The translations under genes were made by a program, and so were the position numbers. DNA of 20,199 nt from positions 1 to 20,199 of the IMG/VR virus record IMGVR_UViG_3300034073_000123; one strand, given 5' to 3'. Shown here piece after piece: positions 1-20,199 of this stretch. Source of the DNA: a virus. How positions within the stretch are numbered: the first letter of the stretch is position 1; each line of letters starts with the position of its first letter. The notes beneath the pieces are model-generated. The model was not told where the DNA came from, made no database searches, and worked only from the letters and a program-made list of their open reading frames with translations.

Positions 1-887
1 CATATTTTGATTCAATTGTGTGGGATGAAAAAGATAGGATAACCCCATTGGTTCAATCAATTAACTCTGATACTGGTGACTTTGATTATAGGCTCATTGC
101 AGTACAATCATGGCTCTTGGGTATCATAGAATCAATATACATTGACAATCCAAATATCTTACAATTGATTTTTGCAGGAAAGCAAAATACTGGTAAATCA
201 GTATTTTTTAAGCAATTACTACCAAAGCAACTATCAAGGTATTTTGGTTTGTCACAATTGGATAATGGTAAGGATGACCAGATACTTATGTGCGAAAAAT
301 TACTCATTCTTGATGATGAATATAGTGGAAAGGCTAAAGAGGATGCAAAACTAATAAAAAGATTACTTTCAGCACCTCACTTTGATATCAGAGAGCCGTA
401 CGGCAGACAAAACGTTAAAATGAAACGTATCGCATCCCTTTGTGCTACTACAAATGAAACTAAAATACTCAATGATATTACAGGAAACCGAAGAATACTT
501 GTATTAGAGGTTATTGGGAAATTTGATTACGAACTATATAACAGTATAGATAAAGAGCAGCTTTTTGGACAATTGTACGATATGCACAAAAGAGGATATG
601 AGGCACAATTAAATGATGCAATGATTGATTTAATGAAAGAATATACCCATGCAAGGAATTCTGAACCTTCAGTTGAAGAAGAATGCTTGGAAAAATTGTT
701 TCACAATCCAACAATACATGATGGATATAGCTATTTAACAAATACTGAAATAGTCTCAATTATAATGGATAAAATGAAATTGAGAGTCGGGTCAAAAAAA
801 CTTGGTATTGTATTAAAAGAACTTGGGTATGAGCAAAAAAAGAAGAATGGAGTTCAAAAATATCAGATTATGCAGAAATTAGGGTAG
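1..887 (+). CDS. VapE/D5-like phage primase-helicase ATPase, C-terminal part (5' partial)
   Basis: This is the C-terminal part of a P-loop replication ATPase of the virulence-associated E (VapE) type, expected to unwind DNA at phage or prophage replication. The frame is open to the left edge (YFDSI precedes the GTG at 18), so the true start lies outside the window. Counting from that GTG, a Walker A motif GKQNTGKS lies at about 54-61, Walker B LLILDDE at 95-101, a sensor-like CATTNE at 142-147 and the family's DITGNRR arginine motif at 153-159. The last 70 residues (NTEIVSIIMDKMKL then a KLGIVLKELGYEQKKK stretch) look like a small winged-helix domain, as found at the C-terminus of many Bacteroidetes VapE proteins (DUF3874-like). 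Any primase domain would be upstream and is not seen. The family call is from motifs; the exact subfamily is uncertain. Confidence 0.85.
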   Translation, partial: YFDSIVWDEKDRITPLVQSINSDTGDFDYRLIAVQSWLLGIIESIYIDNPNILQLIFAGKQNTGKSVFFKQLLPKQLSRYFGLSQLDNGKDDQILMCEKLLILDDEYSGKAKEDAKLIKRLLSAPHFDIREPYGRQNVKMKRIASLCATTNETKILNDITGNRRILVLEVIGKFDYELYNSIDKEQLFGQLYDMHKRGYEAQLNDAMIDLMKEYTHARNSEPSVEEECLEKLFHNPTIHDGYSYLTNTEIVSIIMDKMKLRVGSKKLGIVLKELGYEQKKKNGVQKYQIMQKLG

Positions 888-900
888 GTTGGGCAACTTC

Positions 901-929
901 GGGTAACTTCAAAAATGACGAAGTTACCC
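901..929. repeat. Perfect 10-bp inverted repeat after the helicase gene
   Basis: GGGTAACTTC at 901-910 is the exact reverse complement of GAAGTTACCC at 920-929, separated by a 9-base loop. It starts 13 bases after the helicase stop codon. No T-run follows on either strand, so it does not look like a classical intrinsic terminator. It carries two copies of the GGGTAAC unit facing each other and may be a protein-binding palindrome or an mRNA 3' end hairpin. Confidence 0.75.
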
Positions 930-964
930 TACTCAAACTCAATGTAGATAAGGCTTTCAGCGTA

Positions 965-1103
965 TTAGGGTAACTTGGGTAAGATAAATTCCTATAAAAG
1001 GTTATAAAATATTATATTATAGACAGTATATATAACGCGTGATTTTTATAGCACCTTATAGGAAGGCGTTTTGAAGTTGCCCAAGTTACCCAAGTTACCC
1101 TAA
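965..1103. repeat. Nested inverted repeats (18-bp outer arms, 9-bp inner arms)
   Basis: The outer arm TTAGGGTAACTTGGGTAA (965-982) is exactly mirrored at 1086-1103. Inside it, TTCCTATAA (989-997) is mirrored by TTATAGGAA (1056-1064). The enclosed core is strongly AT-rich, and a shorter TATAAAA/TTTTATA pair lies further in. The whole could extrude as a long imperfect cruciform or fold as an RNA stem with a long loop. The right arm overlaps the three 9-base iterons at 1076-1102. Confidence 0.8.
1076..1102. repeat. Three tandem 9-bp iterons (GTTRCCCWA type)
   Basis: Three adjacent 9-base units, GTTGCCCAA, GTTACCCAA and GTTACCCTA, start at 1076, 1085 and 1094. The same unit in reverse orientation recurs at 889-897 and 966-982. 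The regular 9-base phasing suggests binding of a small multimeric protein along one stretch of DNA. Confidence 0.7.
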
Positions 1104-1136
1104 AAAAATATTTCGCCATAAATATCTAAATCTGAT

Positions 1137-1144
1137 TAATTTTG
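1137..1144 (+). promoter_or_regulatory. Candidate Bacteroidota -7 promoter box (TAATTTTG)
   Basis: TAATTTTG fits the Bacteroidota -7 consensus TAnnTTTG. A partial -33 match, TTTC, is at 1111-1114, spaced 22 bases, slightly longer than usual. The ATG of the packaging operon's first gene is only 5 bases downstream, so transcription would begin at or very near the start codon. It would drive the small protein, terminases and head genes. Confidence 0.45.
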
Positions 1145-1149
1145 TTTAA

Positions 1150-1362
1150 ATGGCAAAGAAAGGTTTTTACATACGGCATAATACCAAAGACAATAGCATA
1201 ATGCTCAATGTCTTTGTGGACGATTTTAAGGCGTATTTAGACACTTTGCAAACAAATGAAGGTTGGGTTAAGCTGAGGATATTTGAGAGGCAAGAAGTGG
1301 ACTCTAAAGGCTTTACACACGATATGCAAGTAATTCAGATGAAAACTGGTAATGATGGGTAA
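1150..1362 (+). CDS. Small conserved-looking phage protein of unknown function (70 aa)
   Basis: I do not recognise this protein. It is 70 residues, soluble, with no membrane segment or signal peptide, and predicted mixed alpha/beta: a basic N-terminus (MAKKGFYIRHN), a central acidic VDDFKAYLDTL helix, and a beta-like C-terminal half. It is the first gene after the repeat-rich gap and overlaps the small terminase start by 8-11 bases, so it is translationally tied to the packaging genes. There is no Shine-Dalgarno sequence. The ATG sits 5 bases after a TAnnTTTG box. A DNA-packaging accessory role is possible from position only. Confidence 0.7.
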   Translation: MAKKGFYIRHNTKDNSIMLNVFVDDFKAYLDTLQTNEGWVKLRIFERQEVDSKGFTHDMQVIQMKTGNDG

Positions 1363-1744
1363 GAAAACGATAGTTGACGTAGATATCAAAAAAGAGGCTT
1401 TTATAAAAGCCTATCAGAATAACTTTGGCAATGTTACTCAATCCGTTGAGGCGGTTGGCGTAACACGTTCTGCATATTACAAGTGGGTAAAAGATGATCC
1501 TAAATTCTTGGCTAAACTCGAAGCGGTAGAACCGAAAGAGATTAAGAAGGATTTCATTGAAACGGCTCTTATGCGTAAAATTCGTGAAGGAGATACCGCT
1601 GCAATTATCTTTGCGAGTAAGACTCAGTTAAAGGATAGAGGGTATATAGAACGCCAGGAACTGACTGGTGCCGATGGCGATAAATTGGGAGCATTCACCG
1701 TAGAAATAATCAATGGGGCAACCGCTGAAAATACAAACAAGTAG
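1352..1744 (+). CDS. terS: Terminase small subunit (phBC6A51/helix-turn-helix type)
   Basis: This DNA-recognition subunit of the packaging motor should bind the phage packaging site and deliver it to the large subunit. Residues about 10-50 form a helix-turn-helix/homeodomain-like region (KAYQNNFGNVTQSVEAVGVT then RSAYYKWVKDDPKF), the pattern of phage small terminases that recall transposase HTH domains. The rest is helical (LMRKIREGDTAAIIFASKTQ, followed by KDRGYIER), matching the oligomerisation region of this family, with a short disordered tail. ATG at 1352 and ATG at 1355 are both possible starts. The gene overlaps its upstream neighbour by 8-11 bases and the large terminase by 32 bases, an arrangement that supports the assignment. 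Confidence 0.85.
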   Translation: MMGKKTIVDVDIKKEAFIKAYQNNFGNVTQSVEAVGVTRSAYYKWVKDDPKFLAKLEAVEPKEIKKDFIETALMRKIREGDTAAIIFASKTQLKDRGYIERQELTGADGDKLGAFTVEIINGATAENTNK

Positions 1745-2861
1745 AGTATTCGAAATCCTAAAGGATTCTAATTCCCGTATCACTGTGATGCAGGGCGGAT
1801 CTCGTAGCGGTAAGACTTACAACATAATCCTCTGGTTTATCATCAAACTCTTACAAGAACGTGGTAAAACCCTTTCCATTGTGAGGCAGTCACTTCCGAG
1901 TATCAAGGGTTCGGTATTACGTGATTTCATTGAGATTCTGCTGAAAATGGGGATTTACGATGAATCTAACCACAATAAGACCGAGCAGACATATAATCTG
2001 AATGGGAACCTGGTTGAGTTCGTTTCGGTTGACCAACCGCATAAAATACGGGGAAGAAAGAGAACCTACCTCTTCATGAACGAATGTACTGAAATGTCAT
2101 ACGAGGCATGGGTGCAGCTTACCATGAGAACTGAGGGTAAGATTGTTCTTGACTATAACCCATCAGATGAATATCATTGGGTGTTTGATAAGGTTATCCC
2201 AAGGGATGATGCTGATTTCTATATCACAACGTATAAAGACAATCCATTCCTGCCGAAGGAACTTGTAGCAGAAATTGAACGGCTAAAGGATGCAGACGAA
2301 AACTACTGGCTCGTTTATGGACTTGGTCAAAAGGGAAACCAGAACGATACAGTTTACACGCATTGGAGGCCAGTAACCAAGATGCCAGAAGGTGAGACTG
2401 TCTACGGCTTAGACTTTGGTTTCAATAATCCGAGTGCAATGGTTAAGGTGGTATTTCATGATGGTGGTATATATGCTGAAGAGATGCTATATGAAACCAA
2501 GCTGACAACAAATGACCTTGTAGAGCGGATAAAGAATCTTGGTATTTCAGCCTACGATGAGATATTCTGCGACTCCGCTGAGCCAAAGACGATTGAGGAA
2601 CTTGTTCGGAATGGTTTTAATGCCAAGCCTTCGAATAAGGATGTGTTTGTAGGTATCCAAAAGATAAAATCTTTGCCTTTCTTTGTGCTTGAAACATCAG
2701 CCAATCTTATCAAGGAACTTAAGAATTACAAATGGAAAACAGATAAGAATGGTAAACGATTGGATGAGCCTGTAAAGTTCATGGATCATGCCATTGACGG
2801 ACTTAGATATAGTGTATACACGAAATTAAACGCACCTCAGTTGACCTGGGGTATAATATAA
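1713..2861 (+). CDS. terL: Terminase large subunit (Terminase_3, PBSX-like)
   Basis: This is the packaging motor ATPase and headful/cos nuclease that drives DNA into the prohead through the portal. The ATPase domain shows Walker A GGSRSGKT (28-35), Walker B YLFMNE (119-124, with E124 the likely catalytic glutamate) and the coupling motif LDYNPSDE (146-153). The C-terminal RNase H-like nuclease has the expected acidic residues D234 (GLDFGFNN), D287 (FCDSAEP) and D358/D362 (MDHAIDGLRYS). At 382 aa it is slightly short but complete in motifs. The ATG at 1713 overlaps the small subunit by 32 bases. The portal gene follows after 4 bases. Confidence 0.96.
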   Translation: MGQPLKIQTSRVFEILKDSNSRITVMQGGSRSGKTYNIILWFIIKLLQERGKTLSIVRQSLPSIKGSVLRDFIEILLKMGIYDESNHNKTEQTYNLNGNLVEFVSVDQPHKIRGRKRTYLFMNECTEMSYEAWVQLTMRTEGKIVLDYNPSDEYHWVFDKVIPRDDADFYITTYKDNPFLPKELVAEIERLKDADENYWLVYGLGQKGNQNDTVYTHWRPVTKMPEGETVYGLDFGFNNPSAMVKVVFHDGGIYAEEMLYETKLTTNDLVERIKNLGISAYDEIFCDSAEPKTIEELVRNGFNAKPSNKDVFVGIQKIKSLPFFVLETSANLIKELKNYKWKTDKNGKRLDEPVKFMDHAIDGLRYSVYTKLNAPQLTWGII

Positions 2862-2865
2862 CAAC

Positions 2866-4242
2866 ATGGGTATTTTAGATATATTCAAAAAGAAAGGACT
2901 AAATCCGAATATCGGAACGCAAAGGGAAGTACAAGCCGTTAATGGTGTTGTACTTCAGCCGTACTATCAACAGGCTTATGTTGATGATGGTTATCTGGGG
3001 AATTCTGATGTTTACGCAATTGTGACATTCCTTGCGAGGAAAGCGGGTTCAATTCCGTGGTATGTGTACAAGATGAAGCCAGGGGAGAAGGCGAAGACCT
3101 CATTAGAGCGTTACAAGCAACTATCCAAAGGTCTGCACAACAAAGGTGCGTTTGAACGTGCCTTGATGGAGCGGAAAAACGCCTATGAGGAGAATATGGT
3201 AACGGGAACTCCCTTGGCTAAACTTCTTGAGCGACCGAACCCTCAACAGGCTCAAGACCAGTTCTTTCAGAACTTATTCGGGTATAGAATTCTCAGCGGG
3301 GAGGGTAATATATACGGCAACGATGGAAACATAGAGAATGGCAAGTTCCTTGAACTAAACGTACTGCCTACTCAATTACTTGAGATTTATCCTGATCCTA
3401 ATGACCTTTACGGATTGATTGGATATAAGTTGATGGTGGCTCAAGGTATTAACATTCCAAAGTCTAACGTTTGTCATTGGAAGTCTTGGAATCCTGATTT
3501 CAACGATGTGACTCGTTCTCACTTGAGAGGTGTTTCTCCACTTCGCTCAGCGTGGAAACTACTTAGGATGTCAAATAACGCAGCCGATGCGAGTGCTAAG
3601 ATGACACAGAATGGGGGTGCAAAGGGTGCATTAGTCCCAGAGGTGGTAAATAACAATGTGCCTCAAATGACACCTGAACAGGCATCAATTATCCAACGTG
3701 CCATCAATGAGCGTATAAATGGAACGGATAATAAAGGCTCTATTGGCGTCATGCAGTATCCGTACAACTACCTAAACTTCGGGTTGTCATCCGTTGACAT
3801 GGAACTTGTCAAGACTCTGCAAATGACACTACATCAATGGTGTAGAGTATTTGGTATGCCTATTGTGTTGTTCGATACTGACACTTCAAGCTATAACAAC
3901 TACACCAATGGTATGCGTGATCTGATTACGAACACCATTGCACCACTTTGTGCGGAGTTGAGAGATGAACTCAACGCTTGGCTTGTTCCAAGGTTTGGGG
4001 AGAACGTATATATCGATTACGACATTTCAGCACTACCAGAACTACAAGCAGACATGGAGAAGATGGTGGCTCAGCTCAAACAAGCCGATTGGCTGACATT
4101 TGATGAAAAACGTACTGCGATGGGTTATGAAGAAAAGGGTGGTGCTTATGCATCATCTTATGTTGGTAGTGGCATGATGCCACTTGAAATGGCAATGATG
4201 GATTTAACGGTACCTGATGACAATAATGGAAATGGTGTATGA
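2866..4242 (+). CDS. Portal protein (HK97 family)
   Basis: The portal forms the dodecameric ring at one head vertex through which DNA enters and leaves and to which the terminase and connectors dock. The 458-aa length and layout match HK97-type portals: an N-terminal basic start (MGILDIFKKKG), then a conserved VYAIVTFLARKAGSIPWYVY block at about 50-70, the LLERPNPQQAQDQFFQNLFG region near 122-143, a YGNDGNIENGKFLELNVLP segment, and WGRV-like HQWCRVFGMPIVLF near 326-339 followed by NTIAPLCAELRDELN, typical of the stem and wing. The C-terminus is acidic and Asn/Gly-rich (VPDDNNGNGV). No frame disruption is seen. It lies between terminase and minor head protein, as expected. Confidence 0.95.
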   Translation: MGILDIFKKKGLNPNIGTQREVQAVNGVVLQPYYQQAYVDDGYLGNSDVYAIVTFLARKAGSIPWYVYKMKPGEKAKTSLERYKQLSKGLHNKGAFERALMERKNAYEENMVTGTPLAKLLERPNPQQAQDQFFQNLFGYRILSGEGNIYGNDGNIENGKFLELNVLPTQLLEIYPDPNDLYGLIGYKLMVAQGINIPKSNVCHWKSWNPDFNDVTRSHLRGVSPLRSAWKLLRMSNNAADASAKMTQNGGAKGALVPEVVNNNVPQMTPEQASIIQRAINERINGTDNKGSIGVMQYPYNYLNFGLSSVDMELVKTLQMTLHQWCRVFGMPIVLFDTDTSSYNNYTNGMRDLITNTIAPLCAELRDELNAWLVPRFGENVYIDYDISALPELQADMEKMVAQLKQADWLTFDEKRTAMGYEEKGGAYASSYVGSGMMPLEMAMMDLTVPDDNNGNGV

Positions 4243-4396: not shown

Positions 4397-5210
4397 CAAA
4401 AAGTACTTTGAGCAGATTCAACAATCTGTTTGGAATACTTTCAAGCGTTTTGCTCGTGACATCGAAGTCATCGGCATTGATGCTGCACGTTCACGCCTTG
4501 GATTGGATTTGTGGGATAAGGAGATGCTCAAGATATTTGAAGCCATGTACAAAGAATCCGTTTTGCTATTTGGCAATAGTGTTTATCGTGCATTGAGGAT
4601 TGAATCACAAAAGGCAGAAACCTTTGGATTTAATCGTGAGTGGACTGATGCGGTGTTGGAGTTCTTGCTGAAGCAGGGATTCACTCTGGTTGCTGATATA
4701 ACTTACACGACTAAGAAGAAACTAAACGACATCGTGACTAAAGGCATTGAAGAAGGATTAGGCGTGGATGAGATTGTGAAACTGATTTTATCTGATGAGA
4801 ATTTAGGCTATTCAGATATGAGGGCAAGAAGGATTGTGAGAACTGAGGTTATGCGGTCATCGAATATTGGAGCAATGAAAGGAGCGGAGGCACATGGATT
4901 TTATGTAGATAAAGAATGGATTTCAGCAAGGGATAAGCGAACACGAAGAATCCCTGAGGATGAATTTGACCATGTGCAGATGGATGGTAAAGTTGTACCG
5001 TTTGAAGAGCCGTTTACCTCAACGGGGAAGAAAGGTGAGCCTGTTGTAATTATGCAGCCTGGTCAGTTGAGTGATGAATCTAATGGAATATTTGCACCCC
5101 CAGGATTTACTATCAATTGCCGTTGCACTGTTGGGTTTATTCCAAAGAGAGATGCCAATGGTAGGCTTTTAAGGAAACCAAAATTAAATGAACCTCAAAT
5201 AATATCATAA
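4335..5210 (+). CDS. Minor head protein, SPP1 gp7 / Mu gpF-like (Phage_Mu_F)
   Basis: This is a minor capsid component associated with the portal and often ejected or needed for DNA delivery. The C-terminal half carries the Phage_Mu_F domain: RRIVRTEVMRSSNIGAMKGA at about 167-186, WISARDKRTR with DHVQMDGKVV, then the signature GFTINCRCTVGFIP near 254-267, with paired cysteines (C260, C262) preceding a charged tail. The N-terminal half (1-160) is helical. An in-frame TAG at 4329-4331 lies just before the ATG, so 4335 is the earliest ATG. The stop codon shares one base with the start of the protease gene (TAATG). The 291-aa length is normal for the family. Confidence 0.88.
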   Translation: MNAKQRKEYWMKTERLRAGLDKKYFEQIQQSVWNTFKRFARDIEVIGIDAARSRLGLDLWDKEMLKIFEAMYKESVLLFGNSVYRALRIESQKAETFGFNREWTDAVLEFLLKQGFTLVADITYTTKKKLNDIVTKGIEEGLGVDEIVKLILSDENLGYSDMRARRIVRTEVMRSSNIGAMKGAEAHGFYVDKEWISARDKRTRRIPEDEFDHVQMDGKVVPFEEPFTSTGKKGEPVVIMQPGQLSDESNGIFAPPGFTINCRCTVGFIPKRDANGRLLRKPKLNEPQIIS

Positions 5211-6361
5211 TGCCGATTTATAGATGCGACAACGGGAAATATAGGATTGGGGATGGTGAATGCGTATTCACGTCAAGAGAATCAGCAGAAAGAGCCTATG
5301 TTGCTTATTTAGCGGAGGAAGAGAATGAATACAAAGAAGAAACCTACAACGACTACCCAGAGGCTGCAACGAATAATGCAAAGAAAGTTCTGAAATGGAG
5401 GGAGGAATATGGTGATGAAGTTAGTGGGATGACTGCCGTAGGTTGGAATCGTGCTAATCAGTTAGCTAACAGAGAGCGTTTAAGCCGTGCAACGATAGCC
5501 AAAATGGCAGCGTTTGAGAGGCATAGGCAAAACGCTGAAGTAGCACCCGAATTCAAAGAAACACCTTGGCGTGACAATGGTCATGTCGCTTGGCTTGGTT
5601 GGGGTGGTTCAGCAGGAGTAGAATGGGCCCAAAGAAAATTAAATCAAATAGACAATAAAAAAAGTATGATATACAATTACAAACATCAGAGCATTGATAT
5701 AAAAGATGTTGATGCGAAACAAGGTATAGTTACAGGCTATTTCTCCGCATTCGGAAATGTGGACTCCGATGGTGACATCATGATGCCAGGTGCGTTCAAG
5801 CGTTCTATCCAAGACTGGGGGCCAGAAGCTAAAGGCAGAGTAAAGCACTTAATGAATCATGATCCAAGTAAGCCATTGGGCAAAATCATTGAACTCAAGG
5901 AGGACAATTACGGGTTATATTACCGTTCAAAGATAGGCAGCCACAAACTTGGTCAGGACTTCATCAAGATGGTTGAATCAGACCTCATTAAAGAGCATTC
6001 AATTGGATTCCGTATTCTGCGTGAGCAAAAAAACCAAGATGCCAATGAGATACATGAAGTGATGCTTTTTGAAGGTTCTTCACTCACTGCATGGGGTGCG
6101 AATGAAGCAACTCCAATTGTGAATATGAAGTCAATAACTGATTTAACCGAATATAAAAATACTATTCGTAATTTTGAGAAGTTTATCCGTGATAGCGATG
6201 TCACCGATGAAACGATTGAACTCTGTCTAATAAAAGTAAGACAACTCGCACAGGCGGTTGAAAAAATGAGTACCACGATGGTTACTGAAAAAGAGCCAGA
6301 GCAGGGAAAAGAGATAAAAGTGCCAGTGGACTCATTTATAAACATTATCAAAAACATTTAA
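5210..6361 (+). CDS. HK97-type prohead protease with extra N-terminal domain (383 aa)
   Basis: The C-terminal part (from about 153) is an HK97-family prohead maturation protease, which cleaves the capsid delta domain after assembly. It shows GYFSAFGNVDSDGDIMMPGAF (split here as GYFSAFGNVDSDGD and MMPGAF) at 176-196, the catalytic histidine region HLMNHDPSKPLGK with H217, and the serine motif EHSIGF with S264. E288 in LFEGSSLT is a candidate third residue. About 150 residues precede it: a short MPIYRCDNGKYRIGDG module, a KKVLKWREEYGDEVSGMT block and a PWRDNGHVAWLGWGG block. This extra domain recurs in my memory in phage head proteins but has no assigned function I can state. An internal ATG at 5666 (M153) would give a stand-alone protease. 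The last ~80 residues are a helical tail. Confidence 0.88.
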   Translation: MPIYRCDNGKYRIGDGECVFTSRESAERAYVAYLAEEENEYKEETYNDYPEAATNNAKKVLKWREEYGDEVSGMTAVGWNRANQLANRERLSRATIAKMAAFERHRQNAEVAPEFKETPWRDNGHVAWLGWGGSAGVEWAQRKLNQIDNKKSMIYNYKHQSIDIKDVDAKQGIVTGYFSAFGNVDSDGDIMMPGAFKRSIQDWGPEAKGRVKHLMNHDPSKPLGKIIELKEDNYGLYYRSKIGSHKLGQDFIKMVESDLIKEHSIGFRILREQKNQDANEIHEVMLFEGSSLTAWGANEATPIVNMKSITDLTEYKNTIRNFEKFIRDSDVTDETIELCLIKVRQLAQAVEKMSTTMVTEKEPEQGKEIKVPVDSFINIIKNI

Positions 6362-7592: not shown

Positions 7593-8081
7593 ATGCCATA
7601 TTCATACGATTACTTTAAGCAAGAGTTTTACTATCACATGAAATCTACGTTCCCATTGGGTATGAATATACTTGATGTTGGTGTAGGGTCTGGGCAGTAT
7701 GGTAGAAATCTAAATGATAAGTTTAAGATAAACGCTCTTGAGATATTCGAGCCGTATGTTGAGCAATTTGGGTTAAAGTACGTTTATGATAACGTAATTA
7801 TAGGGGATATTAGGCAGTTTGATACAACTGGCTATGATTATGTCATAATGGGTGATATCTTAGAGCATTTGACATATTATGAAGCAAAAGAGGTATTGAA
7901 TGGCATAAAGTGTAAGTATATGTTTGCAGTACCTTACAAAATGAAACAAGGTGAGGTAAATGGCAACATACATGAAACGCATCATCAGGATGATTTGACT
8001 CATGAATTGGTACTTAATAGGTATCAAGGTGTAAGATGTTTATTTCACAATTTGGACTATGGCTATTATGTAAACTATTAA
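7593..8081 (+). CDS. SAM-dependent methyltransferase, class I
   Basis: A small (162 aa) Rossmann-fold methyltransferase. Motif I is ILDVGVGSGQYG (26-37), followed by an acidic residue ending strand 2 (E50 in NALEIF), a GDIRQF segment (71-76) and the YDYVIMGDILEHL motif (81-93) that resembles the UbiE/small-molecule methyltransferase type. It lacks the NPPY/DPPY motif of N6-adenine or N4-cytosine DNA methylases and the PC motif of C5 enzymes, so base methylation of DNA is unlikely. A sugar, small molecule or protein is more likely as acceptor. The gene sits between the capsid terminator and a glycosyltransferase gene and is 3 bases from the latter. The ATG lies immediately at the end of the terminator T-tract. 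Confidence 0.85.
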   Translation: MPYSYDYFKQEFYYHMKSTFPLGMNILDVGVGSGQYGRNLNDKFKINALEIFEPYVEQFGLKYVYDNVIIGDIRQFDTTGYDYVIMGDILEHLTYYEAKEVLNGIKCKYMFAVPYKMKQGEVNGNIHETHHQDDLTHELVLNRYQGVRCLFHNLDYGYYVNY

Positions 8082-8084
8082 ACT

Positions 8085-9059
8085 ATGAACGTACTTGCAT
8101 CAATTCATTTATATCCTCCAGAACATAATTGCGGTGCAGAATATATGTTGCATGGCATATTAAAGCACTTACAATCTGAAGGGCATCACATAAAAGTACT
8201 CCTCCATCAAGCCAATCACTACAAAATAACCAATAACTACGTTTTCGATGGTATTGATGTCTTCCCACCGAATGCAAATGTCATCGAAGGCTTAATGAGA
8301 TGGTCAGATGTGGTATTCACACATTTGGATTACACAAGGTGGACAATTCACACGGCTAAACTATATAAAAAGCCAGTATTTCACCTTATACATAATTCTC
8401 ATCCTTACCCTGAGATAATTGATGCGGAGAATAAACAACATATCATTTATAATTCTTTTTGGCTAAAAGACTTACTGAATTATAATTTTAGTAGTTTTGT
8501 ATTGACCCCACCTTGTGACTATCGTTATTACGATACTAATACTGACACTTCCAAGAATACTTACATTACACTAATTAACTTAAACGAAAACAAAGGGGGT
8601 AAGGTCTTTGCAGATATTGCCAGAGCAATGCCACATAAACATTTTCTTGGTGTTCTTGGTTCATATGATGAGCAAGTAACCGAAAATCTGCCTAATGTGG
8701 TGTATGTGAAGAATAATCCGAATATACTTGATACTTACAAACAGACTCGAATTTTACTAATGCCTTCGGAATATGAAAGTTGGGGAAGAACGGCAACAGA
8801 GGCAATGTCAAGTGGTATCCCCGTGATTTGCACTGAGGCAGATGGGTTAAAGGAAAACTGCGGTAAAGCAGGTATTTACATTAAAAACAGAACCGATGTT
8901 AAGGAATGGGCCAGAAGAATTACTGAACTTGATGAAGAAAAAGCCTATAGTTCAGCATCAAGAAAAGCAAAAGCAAGAAGCAGAGAACACGATCCAAGAG
9001 AAGCACTTAATCAATTCTCAACTTGGTTCAAAGAAAAAGTTAACGAATGGTATACATAA
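8085..9059 (+). CDS. Glycosyltransferase, GT4-like (GT-B fold)
   Basis: A 324-aa GT-B enzyme that transfers a sugar from a nucleotide-sugar donor. The N-terminal acceptor half starts with MNVLASIHLYPPEHNCGAEY, including the glycine-containing loop of GT4 enzymes (GAEYMLHGILKHL). The C-terminal donor half shows NENKGGKVFADIARAMP, then MPSEYESWGRTATEAMSSG with the GT4 EX7E pair at E231 and E239. The C-terminal tail is basic and helical. The acceptor is unknown. Beside a methyltransferase and within the structural operon, modification of a virion protein glycan or of host surface sugar is plausible. The reading frame overlaps the connector gene by 13 bases. The codon and base use of this pair looks more AT-rich than the capsid gene, in keeping with an acquired cassette. 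Confidence 0.87.
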   Translation: MNVLASIHLYPPEHNCGAEYMLHGILKHLQSEGHHIKVLLHQANHYKITNNYVFDGIDVFPPNANVIEGLMRWSDVVFTHLDYTRWTIHTAKLYKKPVFHLIHNSHPYPEIIDAENKQHIIYNSFWLKDLLNYNFSSFVLTPPCDYRYYDTNTDTSKNTYITLINLNENKGGKVFADIARAMPHKHFLGVLGSYDEQVTENLPNVVYVKNNPNILDTYKQTRILLMPSEYESWGRTATEAMSSGIPVICTEADGLKENCGKAGIYIKNRTDVKEWARRITELDEEKAYSSASRKAKARSREHDPREALNQFSTWFKEKVNEWYT

Positions 9060-19499: not shown

Positions 19500-20199
19500 G
19501 GATAAACAAATCCTTAATAACTTATATCCCTGCATCGGGTGCGGGTAGTGGTACGGTGACATCTGTTGCGTTATCTGCTCCAACGGGGTTTACTGTGAGC
19601 GGATCTCCCGTTACAAGTGCAGGAACACTTGCCTTAGCCTTTACTACTGGCTATGGCATCCCTCCGCTCATGACGGGTAATAGTGGCAAGTTCCTCACCA
19701 CCAATGGCACAACAATGTCATGGGTGAATATTAGCGGGACTGATGTTACGGGTGCTGCTCTGACTGAGGTGGATGATACCAACGTAACACTCACCCTTGG
19801 TGGTACGCCATCAACGGCACTACTTCGCTCAGTGTCAATGACTCTTGGATGGGCAGGGCAACTTGCCGTCTCACGAGGCGGTTCGGGTGCGGCTACACTC
19901 ACGGGTGTTCTCATCGGTAATGGTACATCCGCATTCACAGCAGTAACAGGAGGCCCAAATCAGATACTTCGTGTTAACGGCACGGCTACGGGTTATGAGT
20001 TCTATACGGCATCGTTTCTGACAAATCCGATGACGCTCAATTATGACATGATTTATCAGGCGAGTGGCGTTCCTGCAAGGCTACCTGGCCCGACATCATC
20101 CACAAAGCAATTTCTTACCGCTCAAGGTAATGGCACGGCTACAACATCACTTGGGTGGGGTACGATAGCTACTGCCGACATACCATCGGCTGCACTTAC
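19496..20199 (+). CDS. Second tail fibre / collar-repeat protein (3' partial)
   Basis: Open from ATG 19496 (ATGA overlap with the previous gene) to the window edge with no stop, so it is truncated here (234 complete codons plus). The product begins MRINKSLITYIPASGAG and soon reads GTVTSVALSAPTGFTVSGSP then AGTLALAFTTGYG, followed by the LAVSRGGSGAATLTGVLIGN motif. These are hallmarks of repeat-rich phage tail fibre and collar proteins. By eye the DNA is clearly more GC-rich than the helicase end, suggesting recent exchange of a host-range gene. Probably a long fibre; its C-terminal receptor-binding part lies outside the window. Confidence 0.85.
   Translation, partial: MRINKSLITYIPASGAGSGTVTSVALSAPTGFTVSGSPVTSAGTLALAFTTGYGIPPLMTGNSGKFLTTNGTTMSWVNISGTDVTGAALTEVDDTNVTLTLGGTPSTALLRSVSMTLGWAGQLAVSRGGSGAATLTGVLIGNGTSAFTAVTGGPNQILRVNGTATGYEFYTASFLTNPMTLNYDMIYQASGVPARLPGPTSSTKQFLTAQGNGTATTSLGWGTIATADIPSAAL

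Follow-up and report, generated by a model that had tools for sequence, protein, structure and literature searches.

Organisation of the locus

The sequence analysed, referred to here as the window, is a 20,199-bp stretch of DNA from the IMG/VR virus collection. It opens with the 3′ part of a gene for a VapE-type helicase (Rep), the stop codon of which (885–887) is followed by a gap spanning positions 888–1149 and by an ORF of 70 residues that starts at position 1150. The family search with this ORF gave no match. Further downstream, the window encodes a TerS-like protein, TerL, portal, a Mu F-like protein, protease, capsid, head-tail adaptor and tail proteins. These virion and packaging genes identify the element as a tailed phage and not a satellite, and a PICI satellite was rejected as a candidate on this gene content. 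A BLASTN search of window positions 1–2900 against annotated phages returned no match. The host is probably a member of the Bacteroidota, based on the promoter described below, the BT4734-like domain and the hosts of related loci found in genome contigs. Elsewhere in the window, between the capsid and head-tail connector genes (7593–9059), we observed an ORF of 162 residues without a PHROG match, which by eye resembles a methyltransferase, and a glycosyltransferase-like gene (PHROG 26352, 2170).

The features of the rep gene and of the adjoining gap are as follows:

3–887, plus strand: 3′ part of rep, encoding a VapE-type SF3/AAA+ helicase with a C-terminal winged helix (Pfam VapE-like, 1.8e-30); cut at the window edge
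792–824, plus strand: predicted recognition-helix codons, residues 264–274 (SKKLGIVLKEL; AlphaFold2 model); the counterparts of these residues in relatives predict the 3′ iteron word
831–869, plus strand: predicted beta-wing codons, residues 277–289 (AlphaFold2 model); the counterparts of these residues in relatives predict base 6 and the 5′ iteron word
882–890, plus strand: degenerate iteron GGGTAGGTT, spanning the stop codon of rep
891–899, plus strand: iteron GGGCAACTT
901–909, plus strand: iteron GGGTAACTT
921–929, minus strand: inverted iteron GGGTAACTT
933–962, plus strand: 30-nt spacer element TCAAACTCAATGTAGATAAGGCTTTCAGCG, common to origin modules of unrelated Reps
968–976, plus strand: iteron GGGTAACTT
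977–985, plus strand: degenerate iteron GGGTAAGAT
986–1073, no strand: AT-rich core, presumed melting region (richest in A+T at about 981–1040)
1074–1082, minus strand: iteron GGGCAACTT
1083–1091, minus strand: iteron GGGTAACTT
1092–1100, minus strand: iteron GGGTAACTT
1107–1144, plus strand: imperfect dyad (1107–1125) and promoter-like box TAATTTTG (1137–1144), forming the right-hand edge of the exchanged module
1150–1362, plus strand: conserved ORF of 70 residues, the first gene past the origin

The heptamer GGGYAAC, on which the original prediction of an origin was partly based, occurs seven times in the gap, on the plus strand at 891, 901 and 968 and on the minus strand at 923–929, 1076–1082, 1085–1091 and 1094–1100. 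We identified the true repeat unit as the 9-mer GGGYAACTT, which has seven exact copies in the gap (three on the plus and four on the minus strand) and eight in the whole 20-kb window, the eighth being located at 19856. The number expected from 100 dinucleotide shuffles of the whole window is far smaller (mean 0.33, maximum 2). The three copies at 1074, 1083 and 1092 are phased as had been proposed, with a spacing of exactly 9 bp. Two degenerate copies, GGGTAGGTT at 882 and GGGTAAGAT at 977, complete a register of 9–10 bp and bring the array to nine units. The order of these units is + + + − / + + / core / − − −, with the 30-nt element in the spacer that follows the inverted copy. The array had been described as lying beside the gene for the replication ATPase and starts at the vapE stop codon; the AT-rich core was likewise recovered, reaching up to 88% A+T in 40 bp.

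Both inverted repeats that had been described are present, namely a perfect repeat of 18 bp (965–982/1086–1103) and a pair of 9 bp (989–997/1056–1064). They are by-products of the opposed iterons, and their pairing is not conserved: in locus L006 both repeats are broken, whereas L028 has a broken outer repeat and L005 a reduced inner one, with most iterons retained in each of these relatives.

To the right of the array, the dyad and the TAATTTTG box show a layout that is identical in 16 relatives, whichever replication module sits on their left. Bacteroidota promoters follow the consensus TAnnTTTG, and we read TAATTTTG as a putative box of this type. The two elements together probably represent a late promoter with its operator, leaving hardly any leader before the ATG at 1150. 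The suggestion that the gap might serve as a “master regulatory hub” is weakly supported: this conserved putative late promoter does abut the array, but the same promoter is found in relatives that have no array.

Relationship of the Rep to known initiators

Full-length relatives of the window Rep comprise 705 residues (as in L005) and contain BT4734-like_N (BT4734_N), PriCT_2 and VapE domains. In L005, the region upstream of the replication genes (153–485, minus strand) also encodes a protein of 110 residues that matches only the C-terminal DNA-binding domain of DnaA (Bac_DnaA_C, 1.8e-11). The sole PDB sequence relative of the window Rep is 7pds (profile E = 5.4e-19), the structure of PriRep1 with dsDNA, which from its name and family we take to be a SaPI Rep. 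The same entry is the top fold match (E = 1.2e-13), and the SaPI5 primase-helicase 7ola was matched by fold as well (E = 3.7e-06). Examined as the candidate initiator, the window Rep is thus an SF3/AAA+ helicase related to SaPI Rep. An origin of the iteron-plasmid type (RepA/Pi/TrfA), which would have an initiator of a plasmid Rep family and direct iterons, mostly accompanied by DnaA boxes, was also considered and rejected, the initiator candidate being a VapE helicase and the iterons lying in both orientations; DnaA boxes were judged by eye.

Iteron arrays follow most VapE-type rep genes

We collected 97 VapE-Rep loci from viral contigs, genome contigs and phage records, and 79 distinct loci with enough flanking sequence were tested for an array, defined as five or more copies of a single 7-mer no further than 420 nt from the rep stop codon. 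The scan of genome contigs yielded no relative when a single protein was used as the query and 22 loci, mostly from Bacteroidota, when an alignment was used. An array was present in 57/79 distinct loci, as compared with 11/1317 control windows of the same loci and 1/395 shuffles. The 22 loci under the threshold include six with four copies, nine with three and seven with nothing detected in the 420 nt. Rather than being absent from relatives or scattered at random, the repeats are therefore found just 3′ of most surveyed VapE-type rep genes. On this basis, the origins of many uncultured phages could be located in sequence data alone, by inspecting the DNA that immediately follows a VapE-type rep gene.

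The arrays usually start within a few bases of the rep stop codon, which lies inside an iteron in L051, L061 and L062. Many relatives show the arrangement + + − / + (+) / core / − − − with quite different words, and others vary the order; examples of other arrays are those of L050 (GGGTAAGAT) and L157 (TGGACAACTT). In many relatives, an AT-rich core again separates opposed iteron sets. From relative to relative, the word changes in all its copies together, including the left copies that lie outside both arms of the inverted repeats. In Flavobacterium phage mumin (L047), one of the loci with nothing detected in the 420 nt, a GGTAACC array is located about 640 nt downstream of rep, beyond a gene for a T5orf172-domain nuclease (5163–5726), which perhaps entered the rep-ori module as a homing-type insertion. 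The 7-mer scan detected no array in Nonlabens P12024S or Cellulophaga phi46:1, the Reps of which are distant VapE proteins.

The rep gene and the array are exchanged together

Using the 70-residue ORF, we identified relatives of the same phage lineage that have in common the promoter block, this ORF and, where the contig reaches, TerS or TerL. Among these near-identical phages, the replication genes differ, and the rep gene and the array are exchanged together. The window-type VapE Rep is accompanied by the GGGYAACTT array, a different VapE Rep (L011, L013 and L025) by a GTTAAGGA array, and DUF3987 Reps (L012, L014, L015, L017 and L024) by GGTGTAAA or TGTGTAA arrays. No iteron array was detected in the phages with a DnaG/DnaB-type protein (L016, L018, L020 and L021). 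Since the word, and the presence of the array itself, follow the replication gene within a constant flank, the array and the initiator gene form a single exchanged unit.

In the four DnaG/DnaB-type phages, a primase-helicase of 585 residues replaces the VapE Rep and the origin, and the short gap contains a GGTGGTG...CACCACC inverted repeat. Two more distant relatives with the 70-residue ORF, L033 (about 3243–3428) and L034 (about 4975–5251), have ATCGCGT arrays elsewhere in the contig, possibly the origins of a different initiator.

The 30-nt element has the form AAACTCAAT-N10-TTTCAGCG and was identified in the window, in L013 (5709–5738) and in L024 (around 5883–5912, minus strand). Its matches have a density of 0.21 per kb within origin regions, against 0.03 per kb in other sequence, and it occurs in only 7/79 surveyed origins. 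The element is common to modules with unrelated Reps (VapE versus DUF3987), which suggests that a factor besides Rep acts at the origin; it may be the binding site of such a second factor or a seam of module exchange. Its identification as a DnaA box was rejected: in the window, its reverse complement includes TTATCTACA, but by eye L013, L024 and L007 have not retained this sequence.

Residues of the Rep winged helix co-vary with the iteron word

The largest Rep clade comprises 77 loci with 64 distinct rep-ori pairs, and for these we compared three parts of the iteron with each of about 650 Rep columns. With word classes set after inspection, majority words used as labels and relatedness corrected only partly, the 5′ word was best predicted by one wing residue (NMI 0.78), such that K corresponds to TGGAC/GCACC, I/V to GTTGC and L to GCATC/GTATC. 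Base 6 was fully predicted by a second wing residue (U = 1.00; T/M for A, R/L for C and A for T), although by the symmetric score another, near-invariant wing column is placed higher. The 3′ word was best predicted by two residues of the recognition helix that are one turn apart, with Q..S corresponding to CTT/CCT, N..Q to GCA and H..T to GGT. All these residues map to the recognition helix and the wing predicted by AlphaFold2, which in the L067 Rep span residues 276–286 and 289–307, respectively.

On a tree built from the Rep sequence without the winged helix, the 5′ word changed at least 18 times, and the key wing residue also changes in 12/14 edge-disjoint pairs that differ in this word. 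The Reps of L165 and L167 differ at only 4/650 residues, all of them in the wing, and the iteron word changes from GTATCAAC to GGACAAC. Within the clade of the window Rep, a helix start of L-G-[SV]-K is found with iterons ending in ..ACTT, and L-S-x-[KR] or LYPRK with ..AGAT or GGAT. This match holds also where the 5′ half differs (L244 and L251), and it corresponds to about 5/5 versus 0/7 distinct helix motifs as counted by eye (p about 0.001).

The spelling of the iteron thus changes with a few residues in the DNA-reading tip of Rep, so that sequence alone points to the reader protein and indicates roughly how it reads. The strong co-variation supports the prediction that the Rep C-terminal domain would recognise its cognate iterons. 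We tentatively propose, with somewhat less than even confidence, that DNA reading by the winged helix of VapE-type Reps obeys a code of nearly one residue to one base, in which the wing would specify the 5′ half and base 6 and the helix the 3′ half. Such a code would have been switched many times, leaving close relatives with mutually orthogonal origins, perhaps through selection against cross-use or against origin-directed attack, of which PLE/Odn is a known case. We found no residue-to-base code of this kind in the literature searched. The relatives constitute a natural mutagenesis set in which single winged-helix residues go with single iteron bases, including the Rep pair that differs at four residues, and they open initiator specificity, origin orthogonality and the exchange of replication modules to direct tests with small constructs.

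A probable Rep-bound origin and alternative explanations

Based on these observations, the gap is very probably the replicative origin of a tailed phage, bound by the phage’s own VapE-type primase-helicase and built to the PICI/Sfi21 design. The original prediction of a phage origin is strongly supported by the position of the array 3′ of most VapE-type rep genes, its exchange with rep, the co-variation of its spelling with the DNA-reading residues and the precedent of Sfi21. The cumulative GC/AT skew, which had been suggested as a check, climbs along the whole contig in both the window and a 29.8-kb relative (G001), and because of this continuous rise it is uninformative and lends no independent support to an origin.

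By analogy with SaPI Rep and Cch2, the C-terminal winged helix of Rep would bind the 9-bp GGGYAACTT unit; from the co-variation, the recognition helix would read its 3′ half and the beta-wing its 5′ half. As the iteron sets face each other over the AT-rich core, Rep would assemble as two opposed oligomers. The core would then melt, Rep could load itself for bidirectional unwinding, and its primase part would be expected to start synthesis.

The conserved promoter-like box and dyad directly after the array, together with the common occurrence of opposed operators in phage control regions, would also suit repeats that act as operators, through which a phage regulator or Rep controls rep and the terS/late operon, with replication starting elsewhere. 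We consider this improbable, given that the promoter block and the downstream genes stay constant in relatives with another word or no array. The array tracks the rep gene and not the promoter, its word tracks the winged helix of Rep itself, and the recurrent AT-rich core between opposed sets likewise argues against operators. Autoregulation by Rep may still occur as a side effect.

Perfect arms of 18 bp enclosing a 9-bp pair could alternatively indicate a hairpin or cruciform (a terminator, a structured RNA or a single-strand origin), with the iteron appearance being secondary. The breakage of arms in L006 and L028 while most iterons persist, together with the concerted change of all word copies, including left copies in neither arm, makes this very unlikely; a search for terminator-like sites and Rfam families revealed no such site and no family near threshold. 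We give just as little weight to a recombination or packaging site beside terS, whether a module-exchange seam, pac/cos or an attachment site. Although the array adjoins the packaging genes and marks a boundary of module exchange, and the 30-nt element is common to different modules, the array follows rep and not terS: vapE is not adjacent to terS in the Cellulophaga and Flavobacterium phages, and the mumin array stays on the vapE side. The word also depends on Rep residues. An origin bound by Rep is thus our preferred explanation of the array.

Comparison with known replication origins

In the origins of PICIs, an AT-rich region lies between two iteron sets immediately 3′ of rep, an organisation described as “shared by ... 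no other known bacterial replicon” (PMC6092414). SaPI Rep is reported to read iterons directly downstream of its own gene via its C-terminal domain (PMC7581432). The locus described here resembles these systems in that the origin is located directly 3′ of the rep helicase gene, in the window as well as in most relatives, and in that iteron sets (left units at 882–985, right units at 1074–1100) flank the AT-rich core. The helicase likewise carries a C-terminal domain predicted to read DNA, with PriRep1 (7pds) as the closest solved structure to the window Rep. In contrast to PICIs, the window represents a tailed phage with virion genes, probably of Bacteroidota, the Rep of its relatives includes a fused BT4734_N/PriCT_2-type primase, and the left arm of its array has an extra inverted iteron and the 30-nt spacer element.

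Two further systems are comparable. The C-terminal domain of SCCmec Cch2 reads downstream iterons in vitro (PMC7581432), but this protein belongs to the D5/Primase_Cterm family, its 23-bp site contains only three AAGTG iterons, and the element is unrelated. In the Vibrio PLE, the DNA-binding domain of the initiator co-varies with the origin, and replication occurs only with cognate pairs (PMC8263062). This satellite differs in its RepA_N initiator, for which helicase activity is not predicted, and in its semi-palindromic iterons of about 30 bp.

Another comparable system is the Streptococcus thermophilus phage Sfi21 (NC_000872), also a tailed phage, the annotated origin of which (34487–34784) is a stretch of about 300 bp that encodes no protein and immediately follows a D5/SF3-type gene. 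We counted nine AGTAAC/GTTACT copies in this region, in both orientations, around a core of up to 95% A+T. The Sfi21 iteron differs from that of the window, its Rep is assigned by Pfam to Pox_D5/DUF5906 and not to VapE, and the profile comparison of this Rep with the window family is insignificant (E = 0.054). The type of origin is therefore already known, and Sfi21 shows that its design was known earlier in tailed phages, which makes the statement of exclusivity to PICIs (PMC6092414) too narrow. Our analysis adds tailed phages, probably of Bacteroidota, to the elements with a PICI-like origin.
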